DNA from: Antitrichia curtipendula
Lineage: Eukaryota; Streptophyta; Bryopsida; Hypnales; Leucodontaceae
Assembly (NCBI GenBank): GCA_951230915.1
Contig: OX579635.1
Coordinates: 40,858,001-40,922,000 of the forward strand
DNA length: 64,000 nucleotides
Direction: 5' to 3'
The position numbers and the translations under genes were made by a program. The notes beneath the pieces are model-generated. The model was not told the DNA's origin, searched no databases, and saw only the letters and a list, made by a program, of their open reading frames with translations. This document shows, one piece after another, positions 20,251 through 41,495 of this stretch (the stretch's first letter is position 1; each line of letters begins with the position of its first letter).

Positions 20251-20278
20251 ATGCCACATTTAACTACTTCTGGACTTT
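20251..20278 (+). repeat. Left terminal inverted repeat
   Basis: The sequence is ATGCCACA followed by TTTAACTACTTCTGGACTTT. It matches the right end in reverse complement except for C against T at its seventh base. A second TTCTGGACTTT follows at 20288. Confidence 0.9.
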
Positions 20279-20311
20279 AGCGGGAATTCTGGACTTTGTG
20301 AAGGTTTAGGG

Positions 20312-22747
20312 CATCGTAGGATATCCTGATCTTATGTAAACTGAGGCCGCAATGCCTTTCGATGGAGGCTTAAACTGCCTTAGGATGTAGAGTCATCGGG
20401 AGATTGTTGATGCAGTGGAATTGTATCCCTTTTGGATTTAAAGTGTAGGAACAAATTGATGCATTCGTATTTAGGGTTGGCTTTAAATATGCGACATTAC
20501 AGATCGGGAGATGTCACGACATATTTCGCAGAGCATTACCCAAGAAGAAAGATGTGATGAGGCAAAACATTCATGCAGTTACGGACATTTGATAAGTTGT
20601 AATAACAGTGAAATACAGAAGGTGGATTCACCAATTCATAATCATCTTTTACTTTTTGGTGAAACGAATAGGGCGAACCCACTACTTGAAAACACGATAC
20701 AAAATAGCCAAAGCAATGACTGTGCACAACCCAAGTGATAACAAGCGAAAAGGACTTTATAATCATTTGAATGCAACAAATACATGCCATTCAAATCGAA
20801 TGGGTGCCAATCAAATAAGTGCCACTAGTTCCATGTGAACTTATGCTTATTTCTGGGCCCACGACCAATCAAAGCGCGGTCCTATAACGTGCACACATTG
20901 CCAATCTGAAGTATCTACATCATCCCTCACATGCAACGCCGGTTGAAGTAAATGCGGACGTGCCCAATTCAGAGGATTGAGAACAAGCATTACGACAGTG
21001 TCATTCAAGAGTACCCTGCGCGTCCGAGGATTACTTGAAAGAGTCCTCAGTAGTGCATGACACCGCGGATACAGTTGGTTCTTGCGTGGATTGTCGGATC
21101 CAGAAAAGAAAAGGAACCTTGAAAGAATCTCCAGCGATAGAATACGTCGAAGGAGAACAGCTAATGTCAAAGGTTGCACTGCCGCCCACAAGCCACAGTG
21201 AGTTTCTTCAACAAGATATCGCAGAAGATCGTGGAAGCCAGCCCGTATTTGTATATTCTGTGGAAGATCCTCCACACCGCCCTTAACGCAGAGATCCCCA
21301 GTCAGTACAAGGAGCATCGCCTTCTGCAAAGACCAAGTACATCTCAGCACACAGAAATGATGTAAAGACAGAAGAAGACGTCGAATGATCGTGAGATATC
21401 ACGATGAATATGCATTACTATAGAACCGCGTACCGAATAGAACTGGCGGATTAGAAAAGAGAACATCAAGTGAAAATCTCATTTGCAGATGAGCTTAGGA
21501 AAGTTAATATTACGTGTAGAATGTGACTGCAGTCCAAAAATGCAAGACTAGTGAGGCATGCAGATAAATGATTCTTTTAAACACAGAAAGTGGAATTAGG
21601 CATAAATAATATGAGATCCAAAAATTAATACAAAAGAAAAGAAGGATCTGCATTACATTGCAGCGAAAGAATTACAAAGTTCAGAGTATCCATTAGAGGC
21701 AAAGTCACACGACCATGAGATCTCCCGATCAAGCCATAGAGAGAAGATTACGTAAACAAATTCAACTCAAGACTTCAGCGGTTTTAGGGTGAAGTCTTGC
21801 TGACAATAGGAGGAACACGCCCAACAAATTGCATAAGCACAACTACAACTATCATCCCCTATTACATAAACCAAAATGGAGGACATTACGGGGACGAAAG
21901 ACGTACAACTGTTTGTACTATCGGACATGTACATGGTGATCCATTAAATTCCTTGGACGGCAAGAGGGAAGATCGTGCGATCTCCTGATTGAACTAAGCA
22001 GCTGAACATTATGAGGCCCACACTAATAAAATCTACTGAAGATACCGCTTCCCAGCATTCCCCCATCTTCGCGAGACATGATGGGACCTTACCATCGTCT
22101 TCAGACGTGATGGGGATTGCTGGAGTGTAGGTCCCCCACTCTGCTCCTTCACTTAGTCTTCATGTTTTTCTTTGCTCCATTCTCTTCATTTATCTCTTTA
22201 CTTGCTTTAATTTCTTAATGCCATATGTCATGGCTTCAATCTTGCTTACCATTCTAAATGCAATGATCCATCAGTTGTTTCGGAGAAACAGAAATAAAAT
22301 ACTTCAGAGTTAAATACAATTTCATTATCCCCAGCAACATGATATGCGATTTAACAAAAAGAAGAAGAGAGACTGACGCTGTGCACAATGAGTACGACAA
22401 CACATGTCAGTTAAAATCGCCCCTACAGTCCATCGTGAGATCTCACGACAGGAAATGAACTTGCATACTATACAAACACATCTTAGTATATTCACGCACG
22501 ACGATAATTACGGAGGTCAAAATTATCCAATTGAAATCATAACTCTAACTCACAAATGGATTTCATATATAACCATACAATAATATTTACAATGTGCCTT
22601 ACAAAATGAGTAAAATTTAAAATGACTCTTAAGAAATGGGAAAGTCAAGTATTTAAAAAATGCATTTACAAAATTCACAGTGAATCCAAGAGTATTAAAC
22701 AGTAAGTAATGAAGTATGATAGAATGAGATCGTGATATCTCCGGATC
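20312..22747. repeat. Palindrome copies in the left arm
   Basis: Copies of the 20-bp palindrome occur at 20312-20331, 20502-20521, 21387-21406 (GATCGTGAGATATCACGATG), 21712-21730, 21971-21990, 22431-22450 (CATCGTGAGATCTCACGACA) and 22728-22747. Those at 21387 and 22431 are close to consensus; the rest are degenerate in one arm. Confidence 0.85.
20847..21317 (-). CDS. Possible small protein of 156 residues in the left arm
   Basis: From ATG at 21317 a frame runs to TAA at 20847. The ATG sits just after CTTTGCAGAAGGCG, which looks like a splice acceptor, so this may be a last exon rather than a whole gene. The product is leucine- and arginine-rich, without a signal peptide or a motif I recognise. 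Base composition is more GC-rich than the surrounding arm, which suggests coding, but no homologue comes to mind. It points the same way as the large minus-strand gene and begins 1.46 kb beyond its stop. Function unknown. Confidence 0.35.
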   Translation of the reverse strand: MLLVLTGDLCVKGGVEDLPQNIQIRAGFHDLLRYLVEETHCGLWAAVQPLTLAVLLRRILSLEILSRFLFFSGSDNPRKNQLYPRCHALLRTLSSNPRTRRVLLNDTVVMLVLNPLNWARPHLLQPALHVRDDVDTSDWQCVHVIGPRFDWSWAQK

Positions 22748-22774
22748 CAGTCCCACGCAGAAGAATAACCACAT

Positions 22775-25700
22775 CTAAATTACACCCTTCAATATGTCAC
22801 ACCCCGGTCTGGTCAACGGGATCTCCGGATTCTGACCATGAGGAAGCGGGTGGGCTCTAACATACGCTGGGACAGCTTCTTGTGACTTGAAAAGTTGGTT
22901 GAGATAAGGAAACAGCTTCCCCATTAAGTCATCATCTCTCATGTCACCATCCCAAGTTCTGGGGAAGATGGCGCTATGACAGTCGTTCTGGAGGTTCTTT
23001 AATGGGTCGTCATCGATGAGTAGAATATTTTCCTGTGTCGGCAAATTCAGCTTACGGGCGAAGTGTGACAGATCCTTTAGAAAGTAAGGCCTGTCCGGAC
23101 GACAACGGTCTCTGTAAGACAAGAGTGTGCAGTCCTCCTGCGTGAGAACAGGCACATCCTTCGGCTTCACAACCGCCCCGGACAGCATCTGGTTCAAAGC
23201 GAATGTCGCATTCTGTTTTGTCATACTACTCCAGAATGCGAGCTTAACAGTCCTATGCACCCAGTCCAGGAAGTGTGGGCAACTCGGTCGCACAGCATAG
23301 CGACGTCTATTACGATCATCGAAAGTCTTGTGAACTAGAACTCCATTCAGGTCAAAGATCACAAAATACGGCCGCGGTTCTACCTTATTCAACGGCTTCC
23401 ACACCTCTTCACGAGAGACTTCAGTGACTCGACAACCTGCTGAAAATCCGACAAACAGCGCGTTAGAGTCCAGTTAAGAATCCGTTCTCAAGTATAAGCA
23501 TTATAAAAAATGGTTAACTTCTTACCTGGAATCCGGGGTCGGATGTATTTTCGGGGAGGCCCTTCTTTGCTCTTGTCGACACCCTGAAATGCTTTCTTGC
23601 CCTCATCACCGTCCCGTTGCCGATTTCCTATCTCGTCCTGAACCATTGGCCCTTTCCTCCTCTCGTCGCCGCGATTTTCCTCTTTCCCCCTATCGTCGCC
23701 AAAAATTGGCCCCTTCCCCTTTTCCATGTCGTTGTCGCTCTCTTGCTCTTCCTCATCGCCTTCCTCGTTGAATAGTTGATCCATTGGATCCCCTCCTTCC
23801 AGTCCTACACGCGGCCCATTCTGAAATGCCCAGTTAAACAATGGTTTGTACAAGAATCAGTGCACTCGCCTTACGGCTTGCGTATGCTGTTTCGTCTTTC
23901 GAAAAGGATCCTTAGGGTCGATGAAATCGAACGCAATTAAATCATTACTCGGAGATTCAGCAAGTGATTTGACCGCATCCACGACGCACAATTTCATTAT
24001 GTCTGCGGCCTCATATGGTAAGGCCTCCAGCACTTCTTCGTTAATTCCCTCACCGTTTCCAGGAGCCACTTCACTTGACACCGCCAATGCAACAGTGGAG
24101 GCGACAGAAGCAATATCCACAGTCACCTTCGGTCTGAATCTCGGACTCATGGGTACCAAGTCAACGAGGGTGTCCTCCTATTCGTCCACCGTTATTCCCG
24201 TGAGCAGAAGACCTCGCAAAGCGACCATCGTGATATCCCCCGATGTAGAAGTTCCTAACCCTACCAGATGTCCGTCAATATCCTCGCCAACTGCCTGATC
24301 AACCTGCGCCATGACGACCTCCGTTTCCTGGACGATCAGGGGATCCCACGATGCCTGTGTGCTCGCCCCAGCCTCCTTATCACGGTTTCCAGAGCCTGGT
24401 GCAGGGGCATCTGTTGCGGGAACCTCCAACTCAAGTCTGTTGGCGTCAATCCCCGGGAGGTCTCCACCAAGAATAAGATCTCGGCACCCTTCAGTTGATT
24501 GGCGGCCGGTGCTTTCATCTGAGTTTTCTAGACCCTTCACTATGTCCAACACAGTCCTTGTGTTCATCGTGGGATCCCCTGATGGACCTGGAATTCTTCT
24601 GACCTCCGTCTGATTCATCCCTCGGGCAGGTTCTGTCCCATCGGGCACATTCCTGATAACTCCATTGCCACTAGCTGTCTGCGGCACCTCCTCGTCGGGA
24701 ACGCCTAAATCGACAGTCTCCAGAGTTGACGGCCGGCAAGCACATGTCAGAAGTATGCCTGCCGCGTGTGATGCTTCGGGATTCACAATCCCAGTTGACA
24801 TCTGCGGATCTTGTTCCGCCTCGGCGACGTCCCTGTTTGGATTTGCTTTCGGACTGACCACCTTCCGCAGCTGCACTGCGGTTGCACTACCTTGCCGTCG
24901 TCGCTTCGCAGCCTTCTTCCCAGCAGTATTTCTTCCACAGCCAAGATACTTGGCCAGATTACTTCCAGTCTTCCTTCTGGATGTCCTCGGGTTCTCGAGC
25001 GGAGACCTTGTAACCTCATTGCTTGTTGAACTGTCGGACAGGAAATGCACTTGTCGTCCAACTCCTTCCGGCTGAGGAGCTTTCTGTGGTTGCTTGGCTA
25101 CATCTCCCAGCTGACTTGGTGCTGGCGGTTCAGAATGATGCTCCTGTTGCTCCACCATATTGCTTGGACCCGTTGGAGGCGACTGAACGTTGGGATCAGT
25201 GACGTTTACGTCCTCCGACCGTCCTGCGGGAGTTCTTGAAGGCGCATCTTCCTCCTGCGTCGAATCCAAAAACAAATCACTTGGACATTTAGAATCCCAA
25301 TCAAACACCAGAAATCACTAATGTGAGCTTCCCAAGATCAGGGGATCTCACGATGGTTCAGCAATTAACGCACACTAACCTCGTTGTGATCAACCGACCT
25401 TGTTCCTGTACGTTCATGGGATTCGTCGATGACCTCATTCACTATATTGTCCTCATGCTCGTCATGGCAATCTAGAGGATCGGATGGGTTGATTTCGTCA
25501 TTATCAGCCTCCATGTCCGATTGATCCTCGGCCTCGCCGGTGCCTTCTGGAACTGGAGGAGCTGCCGCGGGTGCTTCCTTGTCGTCCCAAATCTGTTTGG
25601 CGAAGACCTCACTTGCCGTCACAGCTTCAACGGAATGCACTACCTCCAGCACTTGAACACCTCCTAAATTCTGAAATACACCAATCAGTTGTTAGTGAGC

Positions 25701-28700
25701 CTGGAAGTGGCAGGACCAAAACATTGCGTTACTCGAAATGAAAGGAAGATTGTGGAGTCCAAGACCTTACTAGTCCCAGGTAGGTGAACTCGGGACCGCC
25801 GTTGACATTCACGAGGACAAGGTCGGTGTATGCGAGTCCTTTAAATATCTCCTCCGCCGTCTTGATCTTCAGGTACGGCACATGCGGTCGTCGCCAATAC
25901 GGATGGACATCCTTCATGTCTTGCGATCTGTAAGTCTGCTTCAGATCAGTTAGTCCAGGGAAGTAGGCTTTGAAGGAATCGTACTTGGTTCCGTGAGGGA
26001 TGTGCTCGAAGATGAAGACGAGAAAGACGTTGAACCCCTCCCCGGCCGGTGACATAGGGAAGAAGTCGTCCGGCCCAGCCATGTAAGTCACAACGTGCCA
26101 GTCCCACAACCTTGCTCTCATCTCCTCATCTCTTTTCTCGAGATAGCTCGCAATAGTGTGGAATCCCTCGTCATCTGTGATGAGGACGGCGCCAGCCTGC
26201 GGTGAGACAGTCTTGTCCTTAGGGTCGTAGAACTCCAGAGCATTGAAGAGTTTGTTCAGTTTTCCAAACTCCAGCATCTTCGTATGGGATCCATAGGATG
26301 CCTCCTCAAACATGAACCAGATGTAAAGGTGACGCTTCTTCTTTCCCCGCCATGCCTTAACGTCTGGGGCCGACAAAGTTTTGCTGATATCCCAGGTTCT
26401 CTCGTCCATCATTTTGCATAGATAGTGCTTCGAGAAATCCTGTACATGCGCCTGTGTCACTTCATCCTCCACAGCGGACATGAAGAACGACTCCCACATA
26501 TTAATGACGAATTCGGGGAGGTCCTTTGGGTCGAACGTCTTGTTCAATCCCTTTGTCCTTCTTCCCAGCAGGGACTTCCATGGCCTTGTTCACCCACAAA
26601 TCTAATTCGTCGCTTCCGATGTCCTTCTCGGTCGCGAAGTTCTCCCAAGTGGATTCCGGATATGGTACATACTCCATCTTCCTCATGGGTAGTAGTTGAT
26701 TTGTATAGTGTGCCAAGAGCTCGTTCTTCATGGCCCTCACCAGCCTCAATCTTGCACCAGCGGTATTGAGAGGGATGATTTTGAAATTCTGCCGGCCACT
26801 CTTCTGACCTGTCATCCTCGAACTCTTTACACAGAGGACGTTGGCTTCCACTTGATCCGCAAGGTAGTTTATGTCCTCCGGTCGAAGTCCATAGAGCGTC
26901 TTGAAGTCGTTCTGCGTTAGGGGTTTTTGCTCCTGCTTCCCGCATACATCGACTAGGCCCGTTCCATCAGGAAGATATCCTTTCATGAATTTCTCCTCAA
27001 TGTCGATCCACCTCTTTACGTCGGTGTCGTCCTCCAGGAAGAGCAGGGGTATTCGCAGTTCCGAGTTATCAACAGTCTTCACACCCGCAAAGATTGTCAC
27101 CAAGCACGGATGAAATGCCTGCACAACAGAGTCAAAGTGAGTACCCAATGATCAGGTTTACACCATGAATGGGATACGAAGTCGTGAGATCCCATGATCA
27201 TCGATAGTTACAGTAAAACAAATCGGCATAGCGTCAGTTGTGTGGGATAGACTAGAAAACCATCAGAGGATATTACAATGACGGCATTGTGAAGGAAATG
27301 GAAGTAGAACACAAACATGGACATCGTGGGATCATACGATTGATATTCCGATAGTTGATCCGAAAAGTCAAGAACAGGAATCCACAATACAATTCCTAGA
27401 AATGAAGCCAGAAACCAAATCACAGAGACCTTATTTCTGTCCACAGAGGATTTGAGAATGCTTTGCCGGAGCAATGGTGGAACCCACAGTGATTTCATTA
27501 CAATTTCGTCTGCTTATGTTTGTAAGTACAAGTCGATCATGGGATCCCACGATGACTGCTAAGTGTTCCATTCAGATGCAGAGTCAATATAAATATGAAT
27601 TGGAATCTTACATTATACTCTTGCGTGTGAGTTCTCCCCATTATGGCGGGCTGCGGACTTCCCATACTGCGCCATTTCATTCTTGCGTACAAAAGCTGCT
27701 TGGTGAAATTCATCTCCTTCTGTTCACCAACGAGATTCTGGTTCAGTGCCCGCGAGAAGTGCAGTAGGTCTCCGTGGTTGACCTTGGGTGTCCAGACTGG
27801 AATGATGTAGAACGTAGACGCGAGCTTTTTGTCGGCCTCGGGAATTTCATTAGCATCAATCAGGTTCTTGAAGGCCTTGACAGTGTGTTGTCCCCCAATA
27901 ATGAAGTATTGCGTCTTCGGGTCTTCAAAGATTTCTGGTTTCGGTGGTGTCTTCTCGTAGTGCGTCACCACGCCATTTGGGCCGTATGGGCCAACTTTAA
28001 GTGGGAGGACTATAATCACTCTGCTCTCTGAGTCATACTCTGGTGTGATACGTGCCTTCCTCGTGACTCTGTCCAGCCGTTCAGGATCGATGGCCCTGTA
28101 TACAAGCAGTGCTTTTGATGCCTCGTGCAGGCACTTCATGTTCACACGGATCAGCTCCCCATTTTTGTCACGAAGGGCTTTTCTTCCCCATTTGTAGAAG
28201 CCACTAAAGGATTTCTCATACAATGTCTTCATCGCCATCATTTGCTCCGGTCGCATCTTCTTGATCTCTGCTTCCCCCAGAGCGACAGCCTCGTGCAGCA
28301 AAAGCGGGGTCTCAGCTTTCTTCCTCTTTCCGGCTGAACCCTGTCCGACATCATCGTCATCGCCTCGAGCTCCAACCACTGACTTCCTCTTCTTGGTCTT
28401 CTTGGCCGGTGACGGTTTGGGAGCATCCTCTTCGACTGCCTTGGGGGCAGCACTCGATTCAGCCAAATCTTCCTGAATGATATCCCATTGGTTCTTCATT
28501 TCTTGAGGCTTCCAAGAAGGCTTCGTGGGATCCTTGCACATCAAATGCGCCTTGGCTGTCATGGTCTCACAGAGTCCCATGCTCATCGTCTCGTAGTCGA
28601 GGATGAAGCCATAGGTAATGGACTCAGTGGATAGGGGTACCTTCTCTTCTATGACAAGAAGCGCTGTTTTATTGTCAAGTCCTTGCACTTCCACGACCTT

Positions 28701-30000
28701 GAGACCGCCTGTTCCATGTCCCTTGTCGTTGTTCAGGATAGAGGGAAGAATCAAAGCTGATCCGTCATTGTCAACCTTCCAGACCAGGCCCCATTCCGTA
28801 ACGCTTTGGTCGCATCGGAATATAGCTCCAGGTTTATATGGACCCTTGTACTTGAAGTTGCGGATCCAGGAGTCGACAAAGTGACTAAGCTTCCTCGGTG
28901 AACAATCTTCCGGACTGTCATCAAATTGATGTTCTCTGTAGCATTGTAGACAGTGATGTTAGTGAGGGAGATGGAAAATCAATAGTCTTGCAATGCTAAT
29001 TCTCTCTATATGCTTGTATTACAAGCACGATCATGGGATATCACGATTGTTGATTTTATGACATTTCCTTGAGACGTAAGACATCTGTGATTCATTCTAA
29101 TTAGCAGTCGTTATGACGCCTACTCCTTGTTTTGGGACAATATAGAACGGGATATCGCCTAACTAACTGGATGGTGGAGTGTAAGGCTATCACGAGAGCT
29201 TCTAGATTGAAGGATATCACGATGGCATAGACATTGTAGGAAATCACGATGACCTCTTAAGTATGTCGGTCATGCTTTCGGGATATTTCACGGCCGCCTT
29301 CTATTAATGATTTTCACAGGGTATTGTCTACATCGATTTTGAGATCCCACGATGAGTAATCTTTGAGGCCTACTCACCTGTTCGTCTGTGTTCGATGAGG
29401 CGGCACACAATGATGCATCGTGATGTCCCACGATGTCGGATTTCGTTCCTTCCTCATTTGCACTTGAGGTTTGGTTTGCATTTCCTTGGAGTCTCTACGA
29501 CATTTCATCGGGGGATCCCACGATGTGGCGTGTTCTACTCCAGCGAGAACGGTCCTCGGGACATAATTAGGCTCTTCCATGAGCCTTGATCGTGGGATCC
29601 CACAATGGACAGTCCTCTAATATCTTGAAATTGTAACCTATCGTGATATCTCACGATGATTTTCAGTGCCAACTGACTAAGAAATGGCGCATCGTGGGAT
29701 CCCACGATGCATGGGTTTAGGGGTTCAAAGCACGGTAATAAGGTGGGATACTTATTACCGTGTATTGTTCTACTGATTTGTACTACCGTAACTCTCGATA
29801 GGGTTTGTAACAAAGAGTAAAGAGAGTGCAGAGTACCCTAAATCACAGGACAACAACAACAACCTTCACCCTAGTTTTAATTGCACTGTTCTAAAGCTTC
29901 GCATTGCATGCACGAAAAGGAAATGAGGGTTGCATTTAGAAACTTACGGGGCGTTCCAATCTACTTGACCTCCTGTACGCAGAGCTGAAGTCCCTGCCAT
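22775..30000 (-). CDS. Eight-exon gene: ParB/DGQHR-like motif joined to HAD (NIF/FCP1-type) phosphatase
   Basis: Proposed exons, 5' to 3': 30000-29948, 28935-27612, 27118-25771, 25670-25380, 25254-24265, 24177-23875, 23820-23526 and 23439-22775. All introns are GT-AG (1012, 493, 100, 125, 87, 54 and 86 bp) and phases agree at every junction. The product is about 1,755 residues if one surplus base near 26535 in exon 3 is skipped. Near residue 365 lies FIIGGQHTVKAF, like the ParB/sulfiredoxin-fold DGQHR motif; a lysine-rich, NLS-like KKTKKRKS stretch is near residue 195. Exons 4-7 are acidic and low-complexity, with a basic KKAAKRRR patch in exon 5. The last exon has FDLNGVLV, then WSS and LLIDDDP, the three sequence blocks of NIF/FCP1 HAD phosphatases; the second catalytic Asp of DxD is Asn, as in some plant relatives. 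Exons 1-3 and 4-8 could instead be separate genes, but no stop or start separates them. Confidence 0.7.
24226..24245. repeat. Palindrome copy in intron 5
   Basis: CATCGTGATATCCCCCGATG lies within the 87-bp intron 24178-24264 of the minus-strand gene. Recognising this intron also removes an in-frame TAG at 24178-24180. Confidence 0.85.
24334..24584. repeat. Two palindrome copies in coding exon 5
   Basis: GATCAGGGGATCCCACGATG (24334-24353) and CATCGTGGGATCCCCTGATG (24565-24584) lie inside the exon, in its low-complexity region, and encode SWDPLIVQE and PSGDPTMNT. They are the only close matches in coding sequence; a poor match is at 37355-37374. Confidence 0.8.
25336..25355. repeat. Palindrome copy in intron 4
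   Basis: GATCAGGGGATCTCACGATG lies inside the 125-bp intron 25255-25379. Confidence 0.85.
27180..27554. repeat. Three palindrome copies in intron 2
   Basis: Copies are at 27180-27199, 27322-27341 and 27535-27554 (GATCATGGGATCCCACGATG), all within the 493-bp intron 27119-27611. Confidence 0.85.
29029..29709. repeat. Palindrome cluster in intron 1
   Basis: Nine copies lie in 0.7 kb: 29029-29048, 29205-29224, 29232-29251, 29335-29354, 29416-29435, 29506-29525, 29588-29607, 29639-29658 and 29690-29709. The last, CATCGTGGGATCCCACGATG, is a perfect 20-bp palindrome. All lie in the 1,012-bp first intron of the minus-strand gene. Confidence 0.9.
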
Positions 30001-30566
30001 CGTACCGACAGCTTGCCCGAGTCCGGAATGCAATACAACTGTACAAAAATCGACGGATGCCAAAAAAAAATCATACAATCCAATCAGTACAACAGAATGT
30101 GAAGACTAGTTTCGACAGCAAAACAATATTTTCCAGATGCATTGGACTATCTTACTGCCATAATTCAAGCCTGATCACATTCAACACAAAACTAGAAATT
30201 GCAACCTTCAACGACGACACATTCAGGCCAATTGAAACCGAAAAGTCACGATACTAGGAAATTAATGCAGAACATGCCTAGTATCGATTTCAAAACAAGC
30301 AATGCCATGACTGTCTTACTACATGCATCATTCAAGAACTGAGAACATTCAAAATAATAATGTAAATGGGGGATTTCAGTCGAGAAGGGATGCGAGCTGG
30401 AAAGTGGAAAAAATAATTAGGAGCTCGAGTATAATTATGAAGATTGTCTAACGCCGCGCACTTGAATCGGTAGTTCTCTTCCTCTAGAAATGAAGCCAGT
30501 CTGTGCAAATGGAAATAAAAAACTCAAACAATGAACGTCGGCGGAAGAATGTGCAGGAAACTCACC
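29948..30566 (-). promoter_or_regulatory. 5' leader of the large minus-strand gene with possible leader introns
   Basis: The chosen ATG is at 30000 (context TACGATGG). Just upstream is TTTTTGTACAG, an acceptor-like site ending at 30039, and further up CCAGAG/GTGAGT, a strong donor-like site at 30566/30565, paired with a TTTGCACAG acceptor that leaves a 65-bp intron (30501-30565). These suggest non-coding leader exons. I could not join them in frame to the main gene, so I keep the ATG at 30000. Confidence 0.4.
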
Positions 30567-31187
30567 TCTGGAGTCAAGTTCGCGCTCACATTCGCCACAA
30601 CAAATCCGATGCGCAGCTCACGAAACGTCTCCTTCGGCAAATGCTTAGCCGCCAACTTCCACCACCTTGCGCGCCCGTCTCCACCAGCAAATGCTGGGTC
30701 GCCAAAACGAGGAATCTCACGCGCTTGTCTCCACCAACGACAGCTCCCACCCACAGACTGGAAACGGAATTCGATCGCCTCCTTCCCCTCCGTAAATGAC
30801 GACGCCCCACGCGCAACCGCCTTCAATGCTCCGCCCACAACTCCTGGACACTCGCGGCGTCAAACACAATCAAACTCGCGGCGTCAAGCACAATCAAACT
30901 TGCCCCGTCAAGCACAATCGAAATCGCGGCGTCAAACACTCATGAACCAGTCAAGTTCGCGCACACTCCGCAGCGGAACACAAGCTCTGCAAGGAATACG
31001 AAAGGGAACTCTCCAGCTGCACACAACATCGGGTGAAGGGGGAGAGCACTCGATATCGTGTGCACTGGGGAAGGGAAACCCAGCTCCCCCTGTCGACGTG
31101 GCGCTGTCAGGGGAGAGACGGCGGAGGAAATCACTGTCAGCCCTCCTCATCATTACTGAGAAATCTACGGTTTCGGATCACTCATGA
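30531..31187 (+). other. GC-rich block with an uncertain open frame and an 8-residue repeat
   Basis: This block is much richer in GC than the DNA to its right. A plus-strand frame of 218 residues contains four imperfect copies of SRRQAQSN, produced by the 24-bp repeat at 30851-30946. Its first part overlaps the donor-like site on the other strand, so it may be promoter DNA rather than a gene. No domain was recognised. Confidence 0.3.
30851..30946. repeat. 24-bp tandem repeat, four units
   Basis: The unit is CTCGCGGCGTCAAGCACAAT plus CAAA, with a few substitutions; the fourth unit diverges at its end. Unit length is a multiple of three. Confidence 0.9.
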
Positions 31188-31217
31188 CCCTAAACGAAGT
31201 CATAAGTGAATATTAAC

Positions 31218-31310
31218 TTACCATAAGTGAAAATGAAGTTATCATCATTGAAAATGGGATACCATAAGTGAAAATGAAGTTACCATGAACTTACCATAAA
31301 TGAGAATTAA
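31218..31310. repeat. Short tandem repeat
   Basis: About three imperfect copies of CCATAAGTGAAAATGAAGTT occur. Confidence 0.7.
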
Positions 31311-32344
31311 GTTACTCTCTTTTCCATTTATACTCATAGTCATAGTTACTTGCATGTCTTGAACTCTTCTATTAGTAAGTTATAGGCTTCAAATATGAAA
31401 GTCTAAATGCCCCAAAAATAAAACAAACTCTCAAATGAAAAAATAAAGTGTTTTCTTATAGAAATCGATTCTAATAAAATTCATGTAATGATTCAAATCA
31501 TATATAAAACCTTCAATCATAGGGTGATACTAAAAATATAAGAGTATAAGAGGGTTTAGCGATGTTAGATCCAGGAAAACATGAAGTCCAAAGTCCTTAT
31601 TCCCATCATAGAACCTTTCAAACAAACATTTTTTATGCCCCAAAATTGAAATTTTTGTTTTTAAGCACCGCAAGTTGACCATGTTTTAATACTATAACTC
31701 CGCGAGCGACTATGAGAACGGAGTGCAAATTATTAGATAACTGAAACTGCAAGATGCTTTCATTATATTGGAAGACAAAAAAATTTGAGACAGTCACCTC
31801 CCTCAATATATTTATTGCTATTAATTAGAAATACGAATAGCAAAGCGTGAAGACCCCAATTTCATGATCAAATTCATTTTTCTCGCTACCGGATTTAGGT
31901 CCTGCATTTTCTGGGTATATTGTGGCCTAACTTCAGTTGCATCCTAAATCAATGATAAATTTCCGGTGGCTTCCAATTTTGAGGCTTTAGCAAAGTAAAG
32001 TGCTTGCATTTAAATTGGATTGGCAGAGGGACAGCGGAGGATTTTCACTGAAACACCAAATTGGAAGGCAATATTGAACTTCTAAAAATCTGACTCAAAT
32101 TAGACAAAAACACTGTCTTCAAATTGTATAGATAATTAACTTAAGTTTTTAAGTAAAAGGTAGAAGTTGTAATACTCCGCTCATGAAGTTAAGATTCATG
32201 AGCAGAAATAATCCATGCACCTTTTCCCAAAATGGATCACGTGACTAAAAAATGGGACTCAAAACGACGACACATTCAAATGGGAGTTTTCCATTGAAAT
32301 GAGAGGTTATTTAAAAAAAACTCAACGAAAAGTATTATATCAAT

Positions 32345-32545
32345 TCAGCTAAAATTGAAAGGTTTTCTTGTCAATTTAAGTCGATTCGAGTTAAATTGAT
32401 AGAAAACCTTTCAGATTTGACCTAATATTGAAAGGTCTTATGTCAATTTAAGTCGATTCGAGTTAAATCGATAGAAAACCTTTCAGATTTGACCTAATAT
32501 TGAAAGGTTTTATATCAATTTACATGAAACCTCTCATTTTAAATG
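32345..32545. repeat. Tandem hairpin repeat, about 87-bp unit
   Basis: Two full units and a partial one carry TGAAAGGTTTT(C)T, then TCAATTTAAGTCGATTCGAG, then ATAGAAAACCTTTCA, so each unit can fold back on itself. Confidence 0.75.
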
Positions 32546-32625
32546 CGAGTTGTTGATTTAAGTTGAGATCAACATGATTATTTTGGGAGGTCCTCAATCT
32601 CCCAAACTAATGAATATAATGTTAC

Positions 32626-32985
32626 TCCCGGCATCTTGCGGTTCAAAGAAACCTCATTCTATAAGTCCTATTCAAAATAATACACGTTGGGATGAAAAAA
32701 AAAAAATGTAGATTGAAGTTGTAAATACTCTGCTCATGAAGTTAAGATTCATGAGCGGAAACAATCTATGCAACTTTTTCCCAAAATGGACCATGTAACT
32801 AAGAAATGGGACTCCCGTCCTGCAGTTCAAAGAAACCTCATTCCATAAGTCCTATTCAAAATAGTACACGTTGGGATGGAAAAAAAAATGTAGAAGTTGT
32901 AAATACTCCGCTCATGAAGTTAAGATTCATGAGCGGAAACAATCCATGCAACTTTTTCCCAAAATGGACCACGTAACCTAGAAGA
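32626..32985. repeat. Tandem repeat, two units of 170-190 bp
   Basis: The unit contains GGTTCAAAGAAACCTCATTC, ACACGTTGGGATG and the inverted motif CTCATGAAGTTAAGATTCATGAG. A half unit lies at 32160-32275. The first unit is 32626-32815 and the second 32816-32985. Confidence 0.8.
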
Positions 32986-34260
32986 ATGATGTAGTCCAAA
33001 TACAAGTTTACTTAGTGATAATTTCTAAATCATTTGTGACAAATCTCAAAATCCATTAAGCATGAATTTAGAAAACTTGAACAAAAAATTCTGGAACCGG
33101 TAATCCGAAAATCATCTATCTAAAATCAAAGACTCTAGAATTGACCACCCTAAACCATGAAGTATACACCTAAACTTTAAACCAATAACCATGACCCTGA
33201 AATGAATTAATCCTAAGCCTGAGCATTATTAGTCATGAACAATGCCCTCCTGAATGCTAAACCTTAAACCCAAAAATCATGACTCTTCACATGTTAAACT
33301 TCAACCATACAAGTGTGTACTTTGCGTCCTTAAACCGCGGACAATCGCCCTTATAACCGTGGAACCCAAACCTTAAGACTTCAGTCATTCAAATATAAAA
33401 TATCAAGTATGAACACCTGTGAACCTGAAATTATTGTGAATTCTTTTTGCAAATGAGAGGATTCAGGTGAAAATTAATCCTTCATTTAATAAAAAATGAG
33501 GGGTTCAATAGTTACCTCTTTTTTTGGAGAATTTGTTTTTGTTTGGGATTCCAATGCTCTAGAATTTCATTGGAAACGTTAACCTCTAAATACCAAAGGC
33601 CTGTTTTTTGCCTCTTTGAATTTACTCTATATTGAACTAGAGGCCAACCTTTTGATAAGTTGAATCAAATTTTGGGGTATTGTAACCATACAAATTCAAA
33701 CTACACATGTTAAATATCACATAGGAAACGGAAACACAACAACATCATAATTTGCATCAATTGAAAGATTGTAATGTTTGATCATCAGTGTGTTAAAACT
33801 ATGAAAACCTGTCATTCTCCTTCTGCATGTCAAATCTAAAACATTCAAGACCCCCAAAATATGAGGTTGAAGGGCCTAATCAAATATATAAGCCCAATCA
33901 TTTTATGACATCTCAAAATCTACACTACCAATTTTTATAAAGAATTCCTAGTGTCAATGATTTTTTCATTAAAATCTAGAGTATTTGAGGCAAATTTCCA
34001 AGACCCTTGAACAATACAAGAAGTCAAGATTGCAATGGAACCCTTTGCACAAATTTTGAATAGGAAAAATCATAATCATTCATGCCCCAAAATTGGTTTT
34101 TGGGTTTACGGTTAGACTTAAAAAAGAATCTTTCAATAATATTTTCTACTAAAAATAGGGATTTGGTACGGTTTGACTTTTAGTGAAATTCATTTGCATC
34201 TTAAGAAAGGGTTCCACAAAAAAGGTTCTTAGACACCACCTACGGGGGCCTTCACCCTAC

Positions 34261-34328
34261 ATCCTAAATCCTAAACCCTTAAAACCCTAAACCCTAAAAT
34301 CCTAAAAATCCTAATCCGTAAACCCTAT
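34261..34328. repeat. Telomere-like CCCTAAA motifs
   Basis: Several imperfect CCCTAAA or CCTAAA units follow one another, for example AAAACCCTAAACCCTAAAAT. The run is short and degenerate, so it is interstitial and not a chromosome end. Confidence 0.7.
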
Positions 34329-35127
34329 TTTTTGGCCTTGTGTAGCTCCATCCCTCAAAAATAAATGGGTTGCATCGAGCCTACTAGTATATGAAGAAAT
34401 TTAAAGAAAATTTAGATGACAATGCCAAATTGTTCTAATTTTTTTAAAATTTTGAATGAAAATGTCATGTATAAAGGACACTCATCGAAAAATGTGGATG
34501 AAAACATAACTCCATATAAAATTTAGCTGAATACTAAAATATTTGGCTAGAGCATTTTCTTGTAAGTTGCCACCTCAACACTTCTTCGGAAACCACCTAA
34601 ACCTAACTAGTGCCTTGGCCATTTAGGGGTTCCAGTACAGACTAATGATCATAGAAGTGGCTAAATTTTGCTCCATTGCTACTGAAAAACTTCAGGAGCT
34701 AAAAGTGTATTAAAAAAAATCCTTGAAAAAATTAGATTTTAGTCAAGATTGCAACAAACAATAGAATTTGGTAGGCAATGTGCAACTTCTTCTATATTGA
34801 AATTAGCAGCTATTTTGGTTGTTTTGTATTATAGTACTCCCAATGATTCTTTAAAACTTGCAAAATCCTATCTTCTTTATTTTTTCTAATACTACTCACC
34901 CTCAAGGTAGCCAAAATTGAGTCCCATTTGTCTTGAGGAGGTAGCATATTGCACTAAATCCTAATAATTTAGGTAACATGTTTCACTAAATTCAGTAAAG
35001 CAGTTCTGGGATCACTGGTACACACCCTAAAACCGCAGGCGGTCTGGGGCTAAGGAAAACAAACCCCCGCTCCTCGCCTAAACCGACTGACAGATTGAAC
35101 CAAAAAAAACCCTACCTACAGAGCACA

Positions 35128-36990
35128 TTAGGCACGGAACAGACCAGGGCATAGCAATTCTGGAACCGTTATGTTGGTATTTAGGTCATTAGATCGCCTT
35201 GAGGTGGAGGGACACAGAGTTACTCGTCCAAGTATTGACCTGGACGCGTGTGAAATCCGGGAAATGAAAGTCTGGAAGACCGAATCCTCTTTGCTCGAAG
35301 CATCATTGACTCCTCTGAAACCGTGCAGGGATACCATCCTTGAATGCGGCGAATTTCAGAATGCCAGTGAAGATCCGGAATGCAGGGAACACTGGAGCTT
35401 CGAATTTCCATTCACAAAGTCAAGAGCCCCACGCCCTCCCTCCTTGTGGTCGGAGCAGCGCGGACTTCGAAAGTTCATTCCACTTCCAAAGTGTAAAACC
35501 GCACGTACTCCACGTCTTGATTGCGGCTCGGCAATCTAGAACGCATCCAACCAACATTTGAAAAAAAGGAACGCTTGAAAATTTGAAAACTCACGGCGGG
35601 AATCCAAAGCTCTTGAATTCCAGTGCAGGTGTTTTATAACCCGAAACAAACCTTCAGCTTCTCCTTTTCGCTTGCACACGTGAACAAGTGGAGCACACTG
35701 CGGGGGAGTGGAGTCGGTGTCTACCGATGTAGGCAACGAGATTGGAGTGGAGGCGGACGATGCTTTGACCGGGCCGTTATTCACAAGGTAAGCAATGCAT
35801 TCCTATCAACTACACTGGAATTTCGAGCCTGAGTGTTTCATCAGTCGAATGCATGCCACTGCAATTTCGTGAAACGCTTCAAGCGCGTGTAGATTCAGAG
35901 TGCAGAAGAGTCTGACTGCGGGTGGTTGCTCCGAGCAATAGATTTACTTAGGATAAATTCACCTAGTGAAGCGATCACCACGCTCTGGTGACATGGAGGT
36001 TCACTTGGAGACGGCAGAAGACAGAGCTTAATGTGCCTGTAAATACAGCCACAGTGCCGTCGTATGTTGAGGACAAAGTCTAGATACGGTGATATACGAT
36101 AGAGTAGTACGCGTACGTATCAGACAGGATCGTGATATCCCACGATCGGTGATTCTGAAGTTTAGTGACTCCCGCTGATCTCTGAATGGAAGAAATCAGC
36201 GACCCAGAAATCGGAGGATCACAGGATTGTAGTATCGTGGGATCTCACGATCTTGGTTTCGTGGGATGCAATGATTCACTACACCAAATTTGGTTCTGGG
36301 TCTCGTTAACTCGGGACTATGTCTTCTTCGGTTCCCGACGACCAAGGGATCCAACTGTCTCTCTTTTTAATGAGCAGATCTCGGGATGTCTGTTTCGTGG
36401 ATCCTAGAATGTTTTGGTCGTGGGATCACATGACCGATTAGATATGAGATTGGGATCTGCCTGCATAATTATGTTCGTTTACTTGTTTATTAGCATTTCA
36501 CTCCCTCCAGGCGTAATTCGGTAGAAGGATCGTGGGATGCCACGATCTCTGAAAAGAGTGACCCAACGACCTGTGTGTCGTGGGTTCCAACGACGCATTG
36601 ATCCTTGGTGTGTGGACCTTTCTGTCTGGTTCCAGTGGCCTACTCTTCAATGTACGTACTGGCTTAGTGCTCCCTTTATGGGCATCGTGTGATCTCACGA
36701 TCGCTTGTGGACATCAGATGTTCTTGCGTACCTTGTCGGGGTACTCTATTCATTTGCCAAGACCTGCTATCCTTAGATTCCTTGACACTATTGTTGATGA
36801 TTGACTAGGTATCTTGTATATCGTACTGCAAGTGTTTCCTTAGTAGTCAGCCGGAACTGAAGACATTGTCGTCAGGTTCCTTGGCTACGAAGGGAACGCC
36901 GATCTTTTAACTAAACTAACTCCTGGTATAGTTCATGATTTTTGTAGGTTCAACAAATCTTCGAGATCTCTTCGCCATAAATCACCGAGA
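35128..36990 (+). promoter_or_regulatory. Leader and promoter region of the plus-strand gene
   Basis: TTCACAAG/GTAAGC at 35787/35788 is a strong donor, and TTTTTGTAG at 36949 or just before is an acceptor-like site 40 bp ahead of the ATG. Splicing them gives a leader intron of about 1.16 kb and a frame that stays open into the ATG at 36991, so the real N terminus could lie further upstream. The intron holds a palindrome cluster, mirroring intron 1 of the opposite gene. Confidence 0.5.
36128..36702. repeat. Palindrome cluster upstream of the plus-strand gene
   Basis: Copies are at 36128-36147 (GATCGTGATATCCCACGATC), 36233-36252, 36257-36276 (weak), 36392-36411 (weak), 36416-36435, 36528-36547 (GATCGTGGGATGCCACGATC), 36577-36595 and 36683-36702. 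Confidence 0.88.
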
Positions 36991-39900
36991 ATGGATTCAT
37001 TTAGTGAGTCCGCTGCTGATGCGATTGTTCCATATGTACGCGGTGAGCATGTGGGAAGTGGATCACAGGAGTCCAGCGATGAATCTCCATCGTTCTTGAT
37101 CGGTGATTGGTTTAAGCTGTTTGTTCCTGGATACGGTGAAGTCGGATCCGGGATTGTTAAGGAGGTTTGTCCTCAGGGCCAGTGGCTGGGTGTGCCTCTA
37201 CCTGTAGAGCCCTGGATTTATATTCTGGTGCAGCCTCATTCCATAAAGTTAGCGTTCCAGAACTTAAGATTTAACCCCCAACACAGGAGTTATAGAACAT
37301 TGTATGATGTTCAGGGATGTGTCGTGCTGTGGAGAATCGCCGACGTTGTAAGAGCGTCGAGGGATCCCCCAATGGATCCCTGTCCATATATTTGCCAAGG
37401 GGCCTGGTTTGCACTTGATGTTCATCGGAAAGACGAATGGGGACTCTACGTTTCGTCGGGCCGTATCATTTGCTGGAGGGCGGAGGATCATTTCCAGGAT
37501 GAAACACTTGGTGAGGGCTTCGTGGGTGTATTAGTCCTCGATGTTTTTGTGGGTAACGAGGAAGCCATAATGTCGCACGAGAGGTGGCCATTGTCGGAGT
37601 GCTGGTTTCCAAGCGGTCGGTCGTTGAAGGAGACTGTGGATCATTTTGCCGCCAATCCAGATATAGACGACCCTCTCGCTTATCTCGGAGGTAGAATGAA
37701 AGCACCATATCGCTTTGTAGTCCGTAAACCCAGTATAAAGCTGAAGGAATCACAGTTAGACCGGAAAACGGCAGACGAAGAGATCCGCAAAGTAAGCTCG
37801 CAAAAGTGCTGCAAACATCTGTGTTGTCAGCATTTTAACCAGGAGTTGACGCTGTTGCTTAGGCAAAAATACTACTTGAAGTCGTTCAAGGATCGTTGCA
37901 AATATGGGATTGCAGTGGGAGGGCAGCTCCACGAAATGAATAGGGATCGGAAGCGAAAATTCATCACACTACAGGGAGTGGAAGTTTGTGATACGGCGTG
38001 GTACATAATTCACGGAATCCCAAAGTCGACCTACCACACTTACATCGAGATGTACAATGACGGCGTGAATTCGGGGACGCACGGAAACAAAGGGATTAAG
38101 CGACCAAGGGCTCGGACTGTTCAGGTTACAGGGACTATGAAAGCCATTATTGACGAGAACGCTGATCAAATGCCCCACCAAATGCGCAGTATCAGTAATG
38201 GCCGAGTGGACACTCTTAAATATCTGCCTACAGGCAAAAACTGGAAACGAGTCCAAACGGATGCTAACGAGGTAAACCCATTGATTCTGAGTAATGCAGT
38301 TAGTGATCGTGAGATCCCTCGACTGGATCAACGATCGTTTCTCTGGAATAGTGTTTGTCATTTTCGTTCGCTGGCTCTTTTTGCTCGTACTGTTTCTGAA
38401 GCTTAGTCGTTCTGTTTTTCCAGTTGAATGCCGACTACGGTCTGCCGCCCGTTAGCCAGTCAACCATTAGTAGAATTAAGAAGGACCACTTCAACAATGT
38501 CCACATTAAGCCTGTTGGGAGTTCGTTCGCAAAATGTACCCTGTGCGACGATCTACAGCAGTACATCCTGAAGTCCCCGAAGGGAACCCCCCAATACGTG
38601 GAGTTCATGAATCAGAGGGCTCATCATCTGAATCACCAAGCGTCTTGCCGTCGTCTGTATGCCTCTTGGCGTGAGGAATCCAAACGAGATCCACGAAGAA
38701 TTTTATGTATAATTCACGACAAGATGGATACGGCGAAGACGGCTCTCCCTAGAATGCGGGTGACGACAAAGGCCACGGCGGGTTTGGGGCAGCTTCCCAT
38801 GAGCATCACAGGAATGGTAGCTCATGGTCATGGTGACGGTTCGTACGCCCATTATGCTCCATCATGTTGGCCGGCAGACTCCAGCTTCACCATTTCGTCT
38901 TTTGGCGAGGTTGTTGCGCCGACTGGAGGGTCCACCGATTCGAGAGGCAGGCGACCTCTTTCCATACCCTCCGGCGAATCCAATGTTTGAGGCACTGCTC
39001 AGAGGAAAGTCGAGATGTATGGACAGCCTGACTCTCACTGAACCAAGAGCTCAGGTCGGTAGGATCCCCCTTCCTGAAAAGTTATATCTTCAACTCGACA
39101 ACTCTGCTAAGGATAACAAGAACAAATACCTAATGGTGTTCTTGTCGTTGCTCACTGCACGAGGTGTCTTCAAGGAAATTCAGGTCGGGTTTCTACTAGT
39201 CGGACATACTCACGAGGATATCGATGCCTATTTCAGCCACCTTTCGAAGGCGCTCAAGACCAAGAACACTTTCGTCGTCGCTGACCTCATGAAAGCCTTC
39301 ATGCAGTCCCAAGAATTGTCATTTCTGCCGGAGTTTATACAGGAGGTGGGGGATTTCAAGGCGTTCGTGGAGGGTTACCAGACCGGTGGCTCCGAAAGAT
39401 TAATTAGATTGGGGGAGATGCACCTGTTCAAGTTCTACGTGGACACTGATGGGGTCCCCGTCATGAATTACAAGGAGTCAGCGGTTGATTCAAAGTGGCT
39501 TCCGTCTAATAAACCTTCTCAACGCATTTGGAGGAGAGATGAAAATGGTCGCCCCATGCTCCCTCACGGTTGTCCAAAGCTTGTTCCATTTAAGCCCATG
39601 TGGGGCAACAAGGTTCCCGTCGCGGGTGGAAATTAAGAGAAGGCAAGGGAAATGGCGCGGAAAGCTACCGTGAACAAGGGTTTCATTTTGGTGGGACTCG
39701 AGAAGTACATTCAGTACTGGCAATAAGGAATGTCAAAATGCGAGGGATTTGCAGCTGCATTCGGCCTTTACGTGGAATACTGGAAGTGCGTACTGGATGA
39801 GCTGAAAGAGCCACTACCTGAGTGTCCTCCGGAGTTGGTGGAAGGCTTCTGGCCACAATATGATTGGAGGGTAGCGCAGAATGGAGTTCCTCGTCAAGGA

Positions 39901-40353
39901 AATCCCATGGATGTGATTCCGGAGGAAGAAGAGGAACCCGAACCTTATTGCAGCCCCGCAAATGAAGCGCCAATGGAAAGATTCAATCCGTGGTTGGACA
40001 TACGACCGGACTCATGGGTACTTTTTAGGCCAGAAGTCCCGGAAACATGTGCTGTTTGGCAAGGAAGAGCATTGTCTACTGTATGCAGACTGGAAGGAGA
40101 TGCAAATTACGGGAAGTTTTTGATTCAGTATTGGCGACCCGATAACTCCGAAAGTACGCTGGAGTTGAGGTACCGGAATTGCTGGTACGATAAATGGGTT
40201 GTTGAAGATTCAGCCCCTACCTGGGTTGACGCAGCTGCTGTGGCGTATGCGAATTGGTCGAAAATAGTGGATCCGAAATCGAGGACCATTCCTAAGAAGA
40301 GTAGGGAGTCTGCCTTGGCAAATTTGAATCAGGCAAACGTGTTGGACCCGTGA
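36991..40353 (+). CDS. Putative DDE/RNase H-like transposase, DUF7869 type
   Basis: Proposed exons are 36991-38271, 38424-39612 and 39745-40353; both introns (152 and 132 bp) are GT-AG and phase 0. The product is about 1,025 residues if one surplus base near 38900 is skipped. Near residue 275 is a Cys-rich KCCKHLCCQH segment (possible zinc binding), then a stretch with VCDTAWYIIHGIPKST and HGNKGIKRP, then KCTLCDDL. Candidate acidic catalytic residues lie in IIHDKMDTAK, LYLQLDNSAKDNKNKY and GHTHEDIDAYFS, the order expected of an RNase H-like nuclease. I recall GHTHEDID from the DUF7869 family, common in seed-free plants and some animals; this assignment is from memory. The C-terminal exon is acidic with Trp-rich patches. 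Function as the transposase of the 21-kb element is inferred from position and motifs. It is divergent from the ParB/HAD-like gene. Confidence 0.72.
38305..38324. repeat. Palindrome copy in intron 1 of the plus-strand gene
   Basis: GATCGTGAGATCCCTCGACT lies inside the 152-bp intron 38272-38423. Confidence 0.75.
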
Positions 40354-40381
40354 TCAAGCGCCTTGTCCAAGAACAGTAATC

Positions 40382-41443
40382 CATCGTGAGATCTCCCGAC
40401 ATACGGTGGAGTAGCGCGCCTATCGTGATATCTCACGATGCATTGTGGGGGTTGTCGCGGCCATCATGTGATCTCACGATGCATTGTTCAGGTCGCTGCG
40501 GAAATCGCCTGATATGTGAAGTGCGGGCTGTTTTTCTTTCCTTTACTGAAATGGAAGTGGTTCATGTTTTTATCAATGACAAATACAGTGTTCGGATTAT
40601 ACATGCACAAAGATTAGTCTGAATACGCATTTATTTTTTTACCCTTTCAGTCCGTGTTGGAATTCCAGTCGACTGGGTTCTGCATGTTCAGAATTACGTG
40701 GACATCAGAGATTGGATGTATTTCAGTAGTGATAGAACCCTGATTTTCTCCACACAAACTGAAATACCTCAGATGGAATAGTACAGTAGCCGATATTCAT
40801 CAGTCTACAGATGTATGCTGAATGTCTGAGCACTTGTGACTCACTTGTCTACAGTCCTGTCATTCCACTGGATGTAGTGTGAAATGACAATGTTTCTTGT
40901 GTTAGCACTCCATCAGGGGATCTCCTGCTTAGATAAAAATGGTCTCCTTCTTCCCGAGAGGAAGTGCTTGTTTGATAATTCTGAAGTGATGTTTGGGACT
41001 TCCAGTGAATTTCAAGTTTTCTTCCATTAATGTATCTATAAATTGCACTGTCTACAGCACATGAATCAAACTATAGCGCTTCGACACAAAGATTGTCACT
41101 GAAGCTGCCGCATATTCGACAACCTTGTCAGGGGATCTCACGATGCATTCGTTTCAAACAAAACGGTGAGTGAGGTATTAATATAGGGCTCGGAGCCGTA
41201 TTTGCTTGAACTAGTTGTCATCGTGGGATCTCTCGATAGGTTCGGGGACGTGAGCTGTAAACGGGATGCTGAAATTATGGAAACCTGGTCCACAGATCTC
41301 CCAATCCAAACACGTGAACTCTGACACGGTCAACTACGGAACAGTAATTTACAAATTTTCTAGCATTTCCAAGCACACGAAGAAGCACTCTCCAAAAGAC
41401 TTATGAGTGCAGAAATTGAGGAAGATCGGGGGATTTCACCATC
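40382..41443. repeat. Palindrome copies in the right arm
   Basis: Copies are at 40382-40401, 40421-40440 (TATCGTGATATCTCACGATG), 40462-40481, 40911-40930 (weak), 41126-41145, 41219-41238 and 41424-41443. The rest of the arm (40354-41463) shows no gene. Confidence 0.87.
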
Positions 41444-41463
41444 TCTTTAATTCTGGACTATTG

Positions 41464-41491
41464 AAAGTCCAGAAGTAGTTAAATATGGCAT
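41464..41491 (-). repeat. Right terminal inverted repeat
   Basis: It is the reverse complement of the left end with one mismatch. An inward TTCTGGACT lies at 41451. ATAG follows at 41492-41495, matching the bases before the left end. Confidence 0.9.
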
Positions 41492-41495
41492 ATAG

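Follow-up and report, generated by a model that had tools for sequence, protein, structure and literature searches.

In Arabidopsis, the DNA transposon VANDAL21 encodes a protein, VANC, that binds dense motifs in its own element and removes silencing (PMC5735166, PMC10398659). Fungal TET/JBP transposons, KDZ among them, carry an accessory gene with a supposed anti-silencing function (PMC12730594), and the bacterial regulator VirB, a ParB-type protein, loads at specific sites against silencing (PMC10770331). We describe an element of the moss Antitrichia curtipendula that is comparable to each of them. It occupies positions 20251–41491 of the analysed stretch of 64,000 nucleotides (assembly GCA_951230915.1, contig OX579635.1, positions 40,858,001 to 40,922,000), hereafter the window. 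The element is almost certainly one copy of a family of giant transposons, 20–22 kb in length, with terminal inverted repeats (TIRs). It contains a transposase-like gene with a DUF7869 domain, a divergent giant gene, and 42 copies of a 20-bp palindrome. The best explanation overall is probably an autonomous-type TIR transposon that encodes the binder of its own palindromes and so opposes silencing.

The element and its ends are arranged as follows, with a target-site duplication (TSD) on either side.

20251–41491: whole element, 21,241 bp; ends and 4-bp TSDs in the window copy and nine others, palindromes confined to the element
20251–20278, + strand: left TIR, 28 bp
41464–41491, − strand: right TIR, one mismatch relative to the left
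20247–20250: left copy of the TSD, ATAG
41492–41495: right copy of the TSD, ATAG

The initial annotation is correct on the inverted repeats, which measure 28 bp and differ at one position; the ATAG duplication was absent from it. When the same search, allowing a single mismatch, is applied to ten shuffled windows, the longest repeat is 18–23 bp, and the 28-mer end has no further match in the window at up to nine mismatches. The real window also contains longer inverted repeats (119 bp by the same measure, 952 bp in another comparison); the longest derive from duplicated BURP genes.

A query with the first 150 bp of the element gives 41 matches in the same 400-Mb genome, among the matches scored. 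At least 40 copies of the left end, including that in the window, are 97–100% identical over 148–150 bases; the count is a lower bound, with 40 of 173 candidates scored. The right end was fetched for 20 copies and is full in nine. The other 11, which have no full right end, are left out of the TSD count, which thus comprises nine copies and the window copy. These ten two-ended copies are 19,965–21,972 bp long. All have the left end ATGCCAC; the right end is GGCAT in nine and GGCGT in one. Perfect duplications of 4 bp flank each of them (atag, atat, acct, acaa, aagg, ttaa, aatt, aaat, aaaa, and atag); these comprise nine different sequences and lie in unlike flanks, mostly at A+T-rich targets. 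The element is therefore multi-copy with equal inverted ends and has a TSD of fixed length at unlike sites, as TIR DNA transposons do. At C6:28.90 Mb, a copy is inserted in the end of a related element. A visual comparison over about 23 bases identifies the same end without interruption in L072. The earlier proposal of a giant TIR transposon family is thus upheld by at least 40 left-end copies, equal ends, and 4-bp TSDs at ten places; it had named the lack of a second copy as the finding that would speak against it, and the search of the same genome with the element ends found further copies. Seven complete copies share pairwise identities of 95.9–97.8%, and their distances, being mostly near equal, look like those left by a burst. 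In four copies (L037, L033, L005, and L045), a 45-bp match to the right end is found at one and the same distance, 511 bp, beyond the left end; a repeated head-to-tail arrangement and a hitch-hiking repeat are candidate readings.

The transposase gene lies in the right half of the element.

36991–38271, + strand: transposase exon 1, N-terminal half, 427 residues; choice of ATG inferred
38424–40353, + strand: transposase exon 2, catalytic DUF7869 region and tail
38775–39483, + strand: DUF7869 (PF25273) domain, in two pieces owing to a frameshift

DUF7869 is the sole Pfam match above cut-off for this gene, with an E value of 6.9e-37 for the longer piece (127.3 bits, cut-off 26) and 0.0092 for the shorter. 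A relative, P0001, is 75% identical to exon 1 and reaches the same splice site, and the GT/AG of the following intron is retained in all seven copies. An extra intron in exon 2 of the initial transposase model was rejected; the other copies are contiguous there. The window copy is broken by one frameshift and two in-frame stops, all in exon 2, which is open over its full length in three of the seven copies. The structure model of a transposase relative contains an RNase H-like integrase/transposase core, the fold of DDE enzymes. DUF7869, a domain of 'unknown function', thereby gains a likely role as a DDE-type transposase. Named relatives come from the mosses Physcomitrium patens (39%) and Ceratodon purpureus (40%), and no relatives were found in viral contigs or on plasmids. 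Three of 72 pattern stretches (L001, L002, and L003) fall in prokaryote genome contigs, where DUF7869 genes lie on short contigs of three metagenome-assembled genomes; eukaryotic contamination is the most likely source of these genes filed as bacterial. The earlier view of the family as undescribed holds in so far as DUF7869 is without mention in the open-access papers searched, a scope outside which database entries and subscription journals lie.

The element resembles the CMCT clade (CACTA/EnSpm, Plavaka, ESTA, and others) in being a TIR element with a DDE-type transposase. However, its ends read ATGCC...GGCAT instead of CA...TG, its 4-bp TSD is within the 2–5 bp range of CMCT but is not the 3 bp of EnSpm, and the C(2)C motif between the second D and E is missing (PMC12730594). 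In P0002, assuming that D241 and E280 are the catalytic residues, the interval between them lacks Cys. A weak match to TNP1/EN/SPM (PF03017) in the N-terminus of a relative, P0016 (residues 14–62), below cut-off with an E value of 0.043, may reflect a possible distant link to CACTA. Ginger1 and Ginger2 share with the element a 4-bp TSD and an integrase-like catalytic core, but Ginger1 has TGTNR ends, a length of 2.6–7 kb, and CCGG/CCGT targets, as opposed to ATGCC, 20–22 kb, and mostly A+T-rich targets here (PMC2836005). KDZ differs in its TSD of 7–8 bp and in its transposase (PMC12730594), and no TET/JBP domain occurs in the scanned open reading frame (ORF) pieces of the element. By published criteria, none of CACTA/CMCT, Ginger1, and KDZ agrees with the element in its ends and TSD. 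The element adds a DNA transposon family of 20–22 kb with a second giant gene.

This giant gene is on the minus strand and consists of seven exons with GT-AG splice sites, encoding a protein of about 1,785 residues.

29948–30000, − strand: exon 1, inferred start, splice model
27612–28935, − strand: exon 2, GGQH (ParB/DGQHR-like) region, open in the window copy
27879–27902, − strand: IIGGQHTV motif, invariant in five aligned sequences (window and four relatives)
25771–27118, − strand: exon 3, frameshifted in the window copy (1348 bp vs 1361–1362 bp in the other six)
25380–25670, − strand: exon 4
23875–25254, − strand: exon 5, one in-frame stop in the window copy
23526–23820, − strand: exon 6
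22775–23439, − strand: exon 7, NIF/FCP1-type HAD domain at 22883–23365

For every exon, at least one of the seven copies retains an open frame, with stops counted in the best of three frames. Exon 3 is open in one copy, exon 5 in two, and the remaining exons in four or more; none of the copies combines all seven open exons. Both genes reported earlier, the transposase-like one and the divergent giant one, are present, and the apparent completeness of the element holds for its structure, but not for its genes, both of which are broken in the window copy.

The HAD-phosphatase-like domain is supported by a Pfam match of exon 7 to NIF (PF03031; E 3.1e-15, 56.6 bits, cut-off 21.8). The ParB/DGQHR-like part is putative and has its support at motif level. 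The IIGGQHTV stretch resembles the DGQHR/ParB signature, and GGQH is present in the window and in all four relatives, which are 30–59% identical in exon 2. No ParB/DGQHR profile in Pfam, NCBIfam, or PADLOC matches the giant protein; in PHROGs, one of the five sequences has a weak ParB-like match (phrog_1033, E 0.04). The structure model of the GGQH region has a predicted local distance difference test score (pLDDT) of 38, too poor for assigning a fold. Profile-based sequence searches of the PDB gave nothing useful. A search with the full giant protein found none among 7986 candidates, perhaps because relatives are stored as single exons. The queries used for the relative search, the alignment, and the full-protein search carry one wrong residue at the boundary of exons 1 and 2.

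In the same genome, 95 of 517 candidate places for exon 2 were scored: 44 are 88–100% identical, one is 71%, and 50 are 46–59%. A giant-gene match among these scored places lies within 30 kb of 33 of 67 transposase places, compared with a mean of 1.3 and a maximum of five pairs in 500 random placements. The 34 transposase places without a listed partner may reflect the limit of scoring to 95 of the 517 candidates. In all 33 paired loci the giant gene is upstream of the transposase on the opposite strand, and the two-gene layout is therefore an old trait of the group.

The palindrome, sATCGTGrGATCyCACGATs, is the strongest feature of the element and was not part of the initial annotation. It is distributed over the element as follows.

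20312–22747: seven 3′ of the giant gene, at 20312, 20502, 21387, 21711, 21971, 22431, and 22728
24226–25431: five, in giant-gene exons at 24226, 24334, 24565, and 25412 and in an intron at 25336
27180–27554: four in intron 2 of the giant gene, at 27180, 27261, 27322, and 27535
29029–29709: cluster of nine in intron 1 of the giant gene
36128–36702: cluster of eight upstream of the transposase
37355–38324: two, at 37355 in transposase exon 1 and at 38305 in transposase intron 1
40382–41443: seven downstream of the transposase stop, towards the right end

A position weight matrix (>9 bits) finds 42 palindromes inside the element and none in 42.8 kb of flank, against a mean of 0.7 and a maximum of two in 30 shuffles. 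Counted by mismatches (six or fewer), there are 37 inside and one outside. When palindromes of any family are sought, the element yields 40, the flanks 15 (poly-A/T) and 8, and 20 shuffles at most seven. The block therefore differs from its flanks in repeat content as well as gene content, as had been noted from the window. Coding sequence, which makes up 8,567 of the 21,241 bp, is depleted and contains five of the 42 sites (p 5.6e-5); 23 fall within introns or in the region 5′ of the transposase, and 14 are beyond the 3′ ends of both genes. The adjoining bases differ from site to site, leaving the 20-bp palindrome alone as the common part. All seven complete copies have 42–45 palindromes. A hairpin reading was rejected, as the two halves vary independently, with covariation not beyond column make-up. 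Genome-wide, the palindrome core is found at 202 exact places, compared with none for a reversed control. Among the first 50 listed places, 39 are within 25 kb of a family match and 11 are not; 500 random placements give a mean of 0.9 and a maximum of five.

VANDALs are MULEs, and the window element has no MULE transposase. It does contain a dense, element-specific motif in noncoding regions. Like VANDAL21, it is a plant DNA transposon with a short motif of its own that is dense in introns and upstream regions and rare elsewhere; motifs that differ between related families and tandem arrays are further shared features (PMC5735166). The element differs in having a 20-bp palindrome, where VANDAL has a 9-bp motif in one orientation, a DUF7869 transposase, a 4-bp TSD, and no recognized VANC-like protein; the binding is a prediction here. 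Because the motif pattern matches that of VANC targets, an element-encoded dimeric binder and an anti-silencing role are proposed.

In the proposed mechanism, the DUF7869 protein would act as a DDE transposase of RNase H fold, binding the TIRs, excising the element, and inserting it with a 4-bp stagger. The palindromes are very likely target sites of a protein encoded by the element itself, which would bind them as a dimer. We lean slightly towards the giant GGQH/HAD protein as the putative binder; the fast-diverging N-terminal half of the transposase is a second candidate. The binder would occupy its 40 or so sites, which lie within introns, 5′ of the transposase, and close to the ends. Once loaded, it might keep copies of its own family open to transcription and transposase, against host silencing, and the transcription machinery might be a target of its HAD domain or just a docking partner. 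Families would escape one another by palindrome change. Loading of a ParB-type protein at specific sites against silencing is also a feature of VirB, but VirB is a bacterial regulator, whereas the giant protein is fused to a HAD domain and its ParB fold is putative (PMC10770331). By analogy with VANC, anti-silencing as the main effect of the palindromes falls a little short of an even chance. If it is correct, this would be a second, unrelated case of transposons evolving sequence-specific self-recognition.

Related families differ in their palindromes. A second family on contig C8 (L073 and L074) lacks the window palindrome and instead carries motif 2, CATCTGGA-N4-TCCAGATG, 13 times in L073 and 11 times in L074 at three or fewer mismatches. 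Motif 2 is absent from ten shuffles of L073 and from the window element, and occurs at 264 exact places in the genome, with none in the control. Its arrays in the second family have a period of 28 bp upstream of the transposase and about 116 bp further up. In a third family, L072, nine sites fit CATCGGGAGATCTCCCGATG within five mismatches. In all three families, one palindrome lies in transposase intron 1; it is of the window type (motif 1) in the window and L072 and of the motif-2 type in L073. Contigs C1 and C2, for which the motif-2 list reaches C2:52.96 Mb, contain 16 transposase places; within 22 kb, six have exact motif 1 only, five motif 2 only, none both, and five neither. No exact motif 1–motif 2 pair within 22 kb is found on these contigs. 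A reader of the two motif types would thus be testable by site swaps within one genome. A superfamily with a diversifying address code, in which a ParB-derived, HAD/FCP1-fused protein shields only its own kin through family-specific palindromes and families split by palindrome switch, is a tentative extension.

Several observations weigh against the anti-silencing model and its parts. The L072 family also has six fits to the window motif and two to motif 2 (three or fewer mismatches), and the window element holds 23 fits to the L072 form; L072 carries a close variant of the window motif and is not cleanly separate. Giant-gene matches were not found near motif 2: of the 18 giant-gene places on C1 and C2, drawn from the 95 of 517 candidates scored, 13 are near motif 1 only, none near motif 2, and five near neither, and the L074 stretch has no giant-gene match. 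Giant-gene matches only about 50% identical to that of the window still adjoin motif 1, and motif and protein are therefore not changing in step. The nearest solved relative of the HAD domain is TIM50 (PDB, E 6e-5), a protein not known to have enzyme activity. Active NIF/FCP1 HAD members carry a DxDx motif, in place of which the giant protein has DLNG at about 23342–23353, with Asn at the second acidic position, so that HAD activity is uncertain. A Foldseek search with the transposase model gave no match at E ≤ 0.001. A known transposase family that is missing from the structure list is not excluded for that reason. Finally, CpGs in palindromes have 44.6 private changes per 1000, compared with 38.3 for CpGs in the remaining noncoding DNA. 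Transitions of the C>T or G>A type make up 1239 of the 1644 private changes. Protection of the palindromes from methylation-type decay is thus not seen in the copy comparison, and the present copies look methylated, silenced, and dead.

The foremost alternative, which we consider possible although not favoured, is that the palindromes are cis sites at which the transposition machinery assembles and pairs the ends of the 21-kb element, with no role in silencing. The subterminal repeats of En/Spm and Ac are an analogue. Seven palindromes in the left-most 2.5 kb and seven in the right-most 1.1 kb, the outermost at 61 and 48 bp from the ends, suit such pairing, and between families the transposase is less conserved in its N-terminal half (57–66% identity) than in its catalytic part (81–85%). 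A gene-less 239-bp miniature inverted-repeat transposable element (L072:9105–9343), near the right end of a full element, has the family ends, a 4-bp TSD (TTTT), and palindrome-like sites; their retention without genes suits a transposition role better than anti-silencing. However, 23 of the 42 sites, located within introns or 5′ of the transposase, are far from the ends, and the motif-2 arrays likewise lie upstream of the transposase and deeper inside.

A ParB-parS-like system proper, with CTP-dependent clamps that are loaded onto the palindromes and spread from there to serve segregation of the element or its retention linked to replication, is improbable. The invariance of the GGQH region in five aligned sequences, the one weak ParB match, and parS-like palindromes on the same element agree with it, as does the frequent association of the ParB-CTPase fold with mobile elements (PMC12704722). 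Yet neither profiles nor the model establish a ParB fold in the giant protein, no ParA-like domain is found in ten ORF pieces scanned, and an element integrated in a chromosome has no evident need of partition. Slightly less probable still is that the palindromes are passive repeat leftovers, spread by slippage or gene conversion and bound by nothing. Such an origin would suit the tandem arrays of the motif-2 family, but the window sites are dispersed over 21 kb, depleted in exons, and set among differing bases, and the same transposase intron carries a palindrome in all three families. That the locus is no transposon but a host gene pair in a segmental duplication, as its flanks of duplicated BURP genes might suggest, is refuted by the 4-bp duplications of nine sequences in unlike flanks at all ten two-ended copies.

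The remaining features lie in the centre of the element and in its flanks.

31200–35000: palindrome-free, A+T-rich centre holding tandem repeats of 72 and 178 bp and a telomere-like stretch

The telomere-like stretch is of the CCCTAAA type and spans 34254–34327. The centre has 7.0 private substitutions per 1000, compared with 11.4 in other noncoding DNA, partly because it contains few CpGs. An empty site sought through paralogous flanks inside the window was not found; the duplicated flank begins 577 bp to the right of the element. Duplicated BURP-domain genes flank the element on both sides, at 5161–6112, 47780–48725, 57926–58877, and about 12–14.5 kb, the last identified by DNA similarity only. 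All three flank ORFs scanned match PF03181 (BURP), and the right flank at 42068–43961 is 88% identical to 62106–63995.

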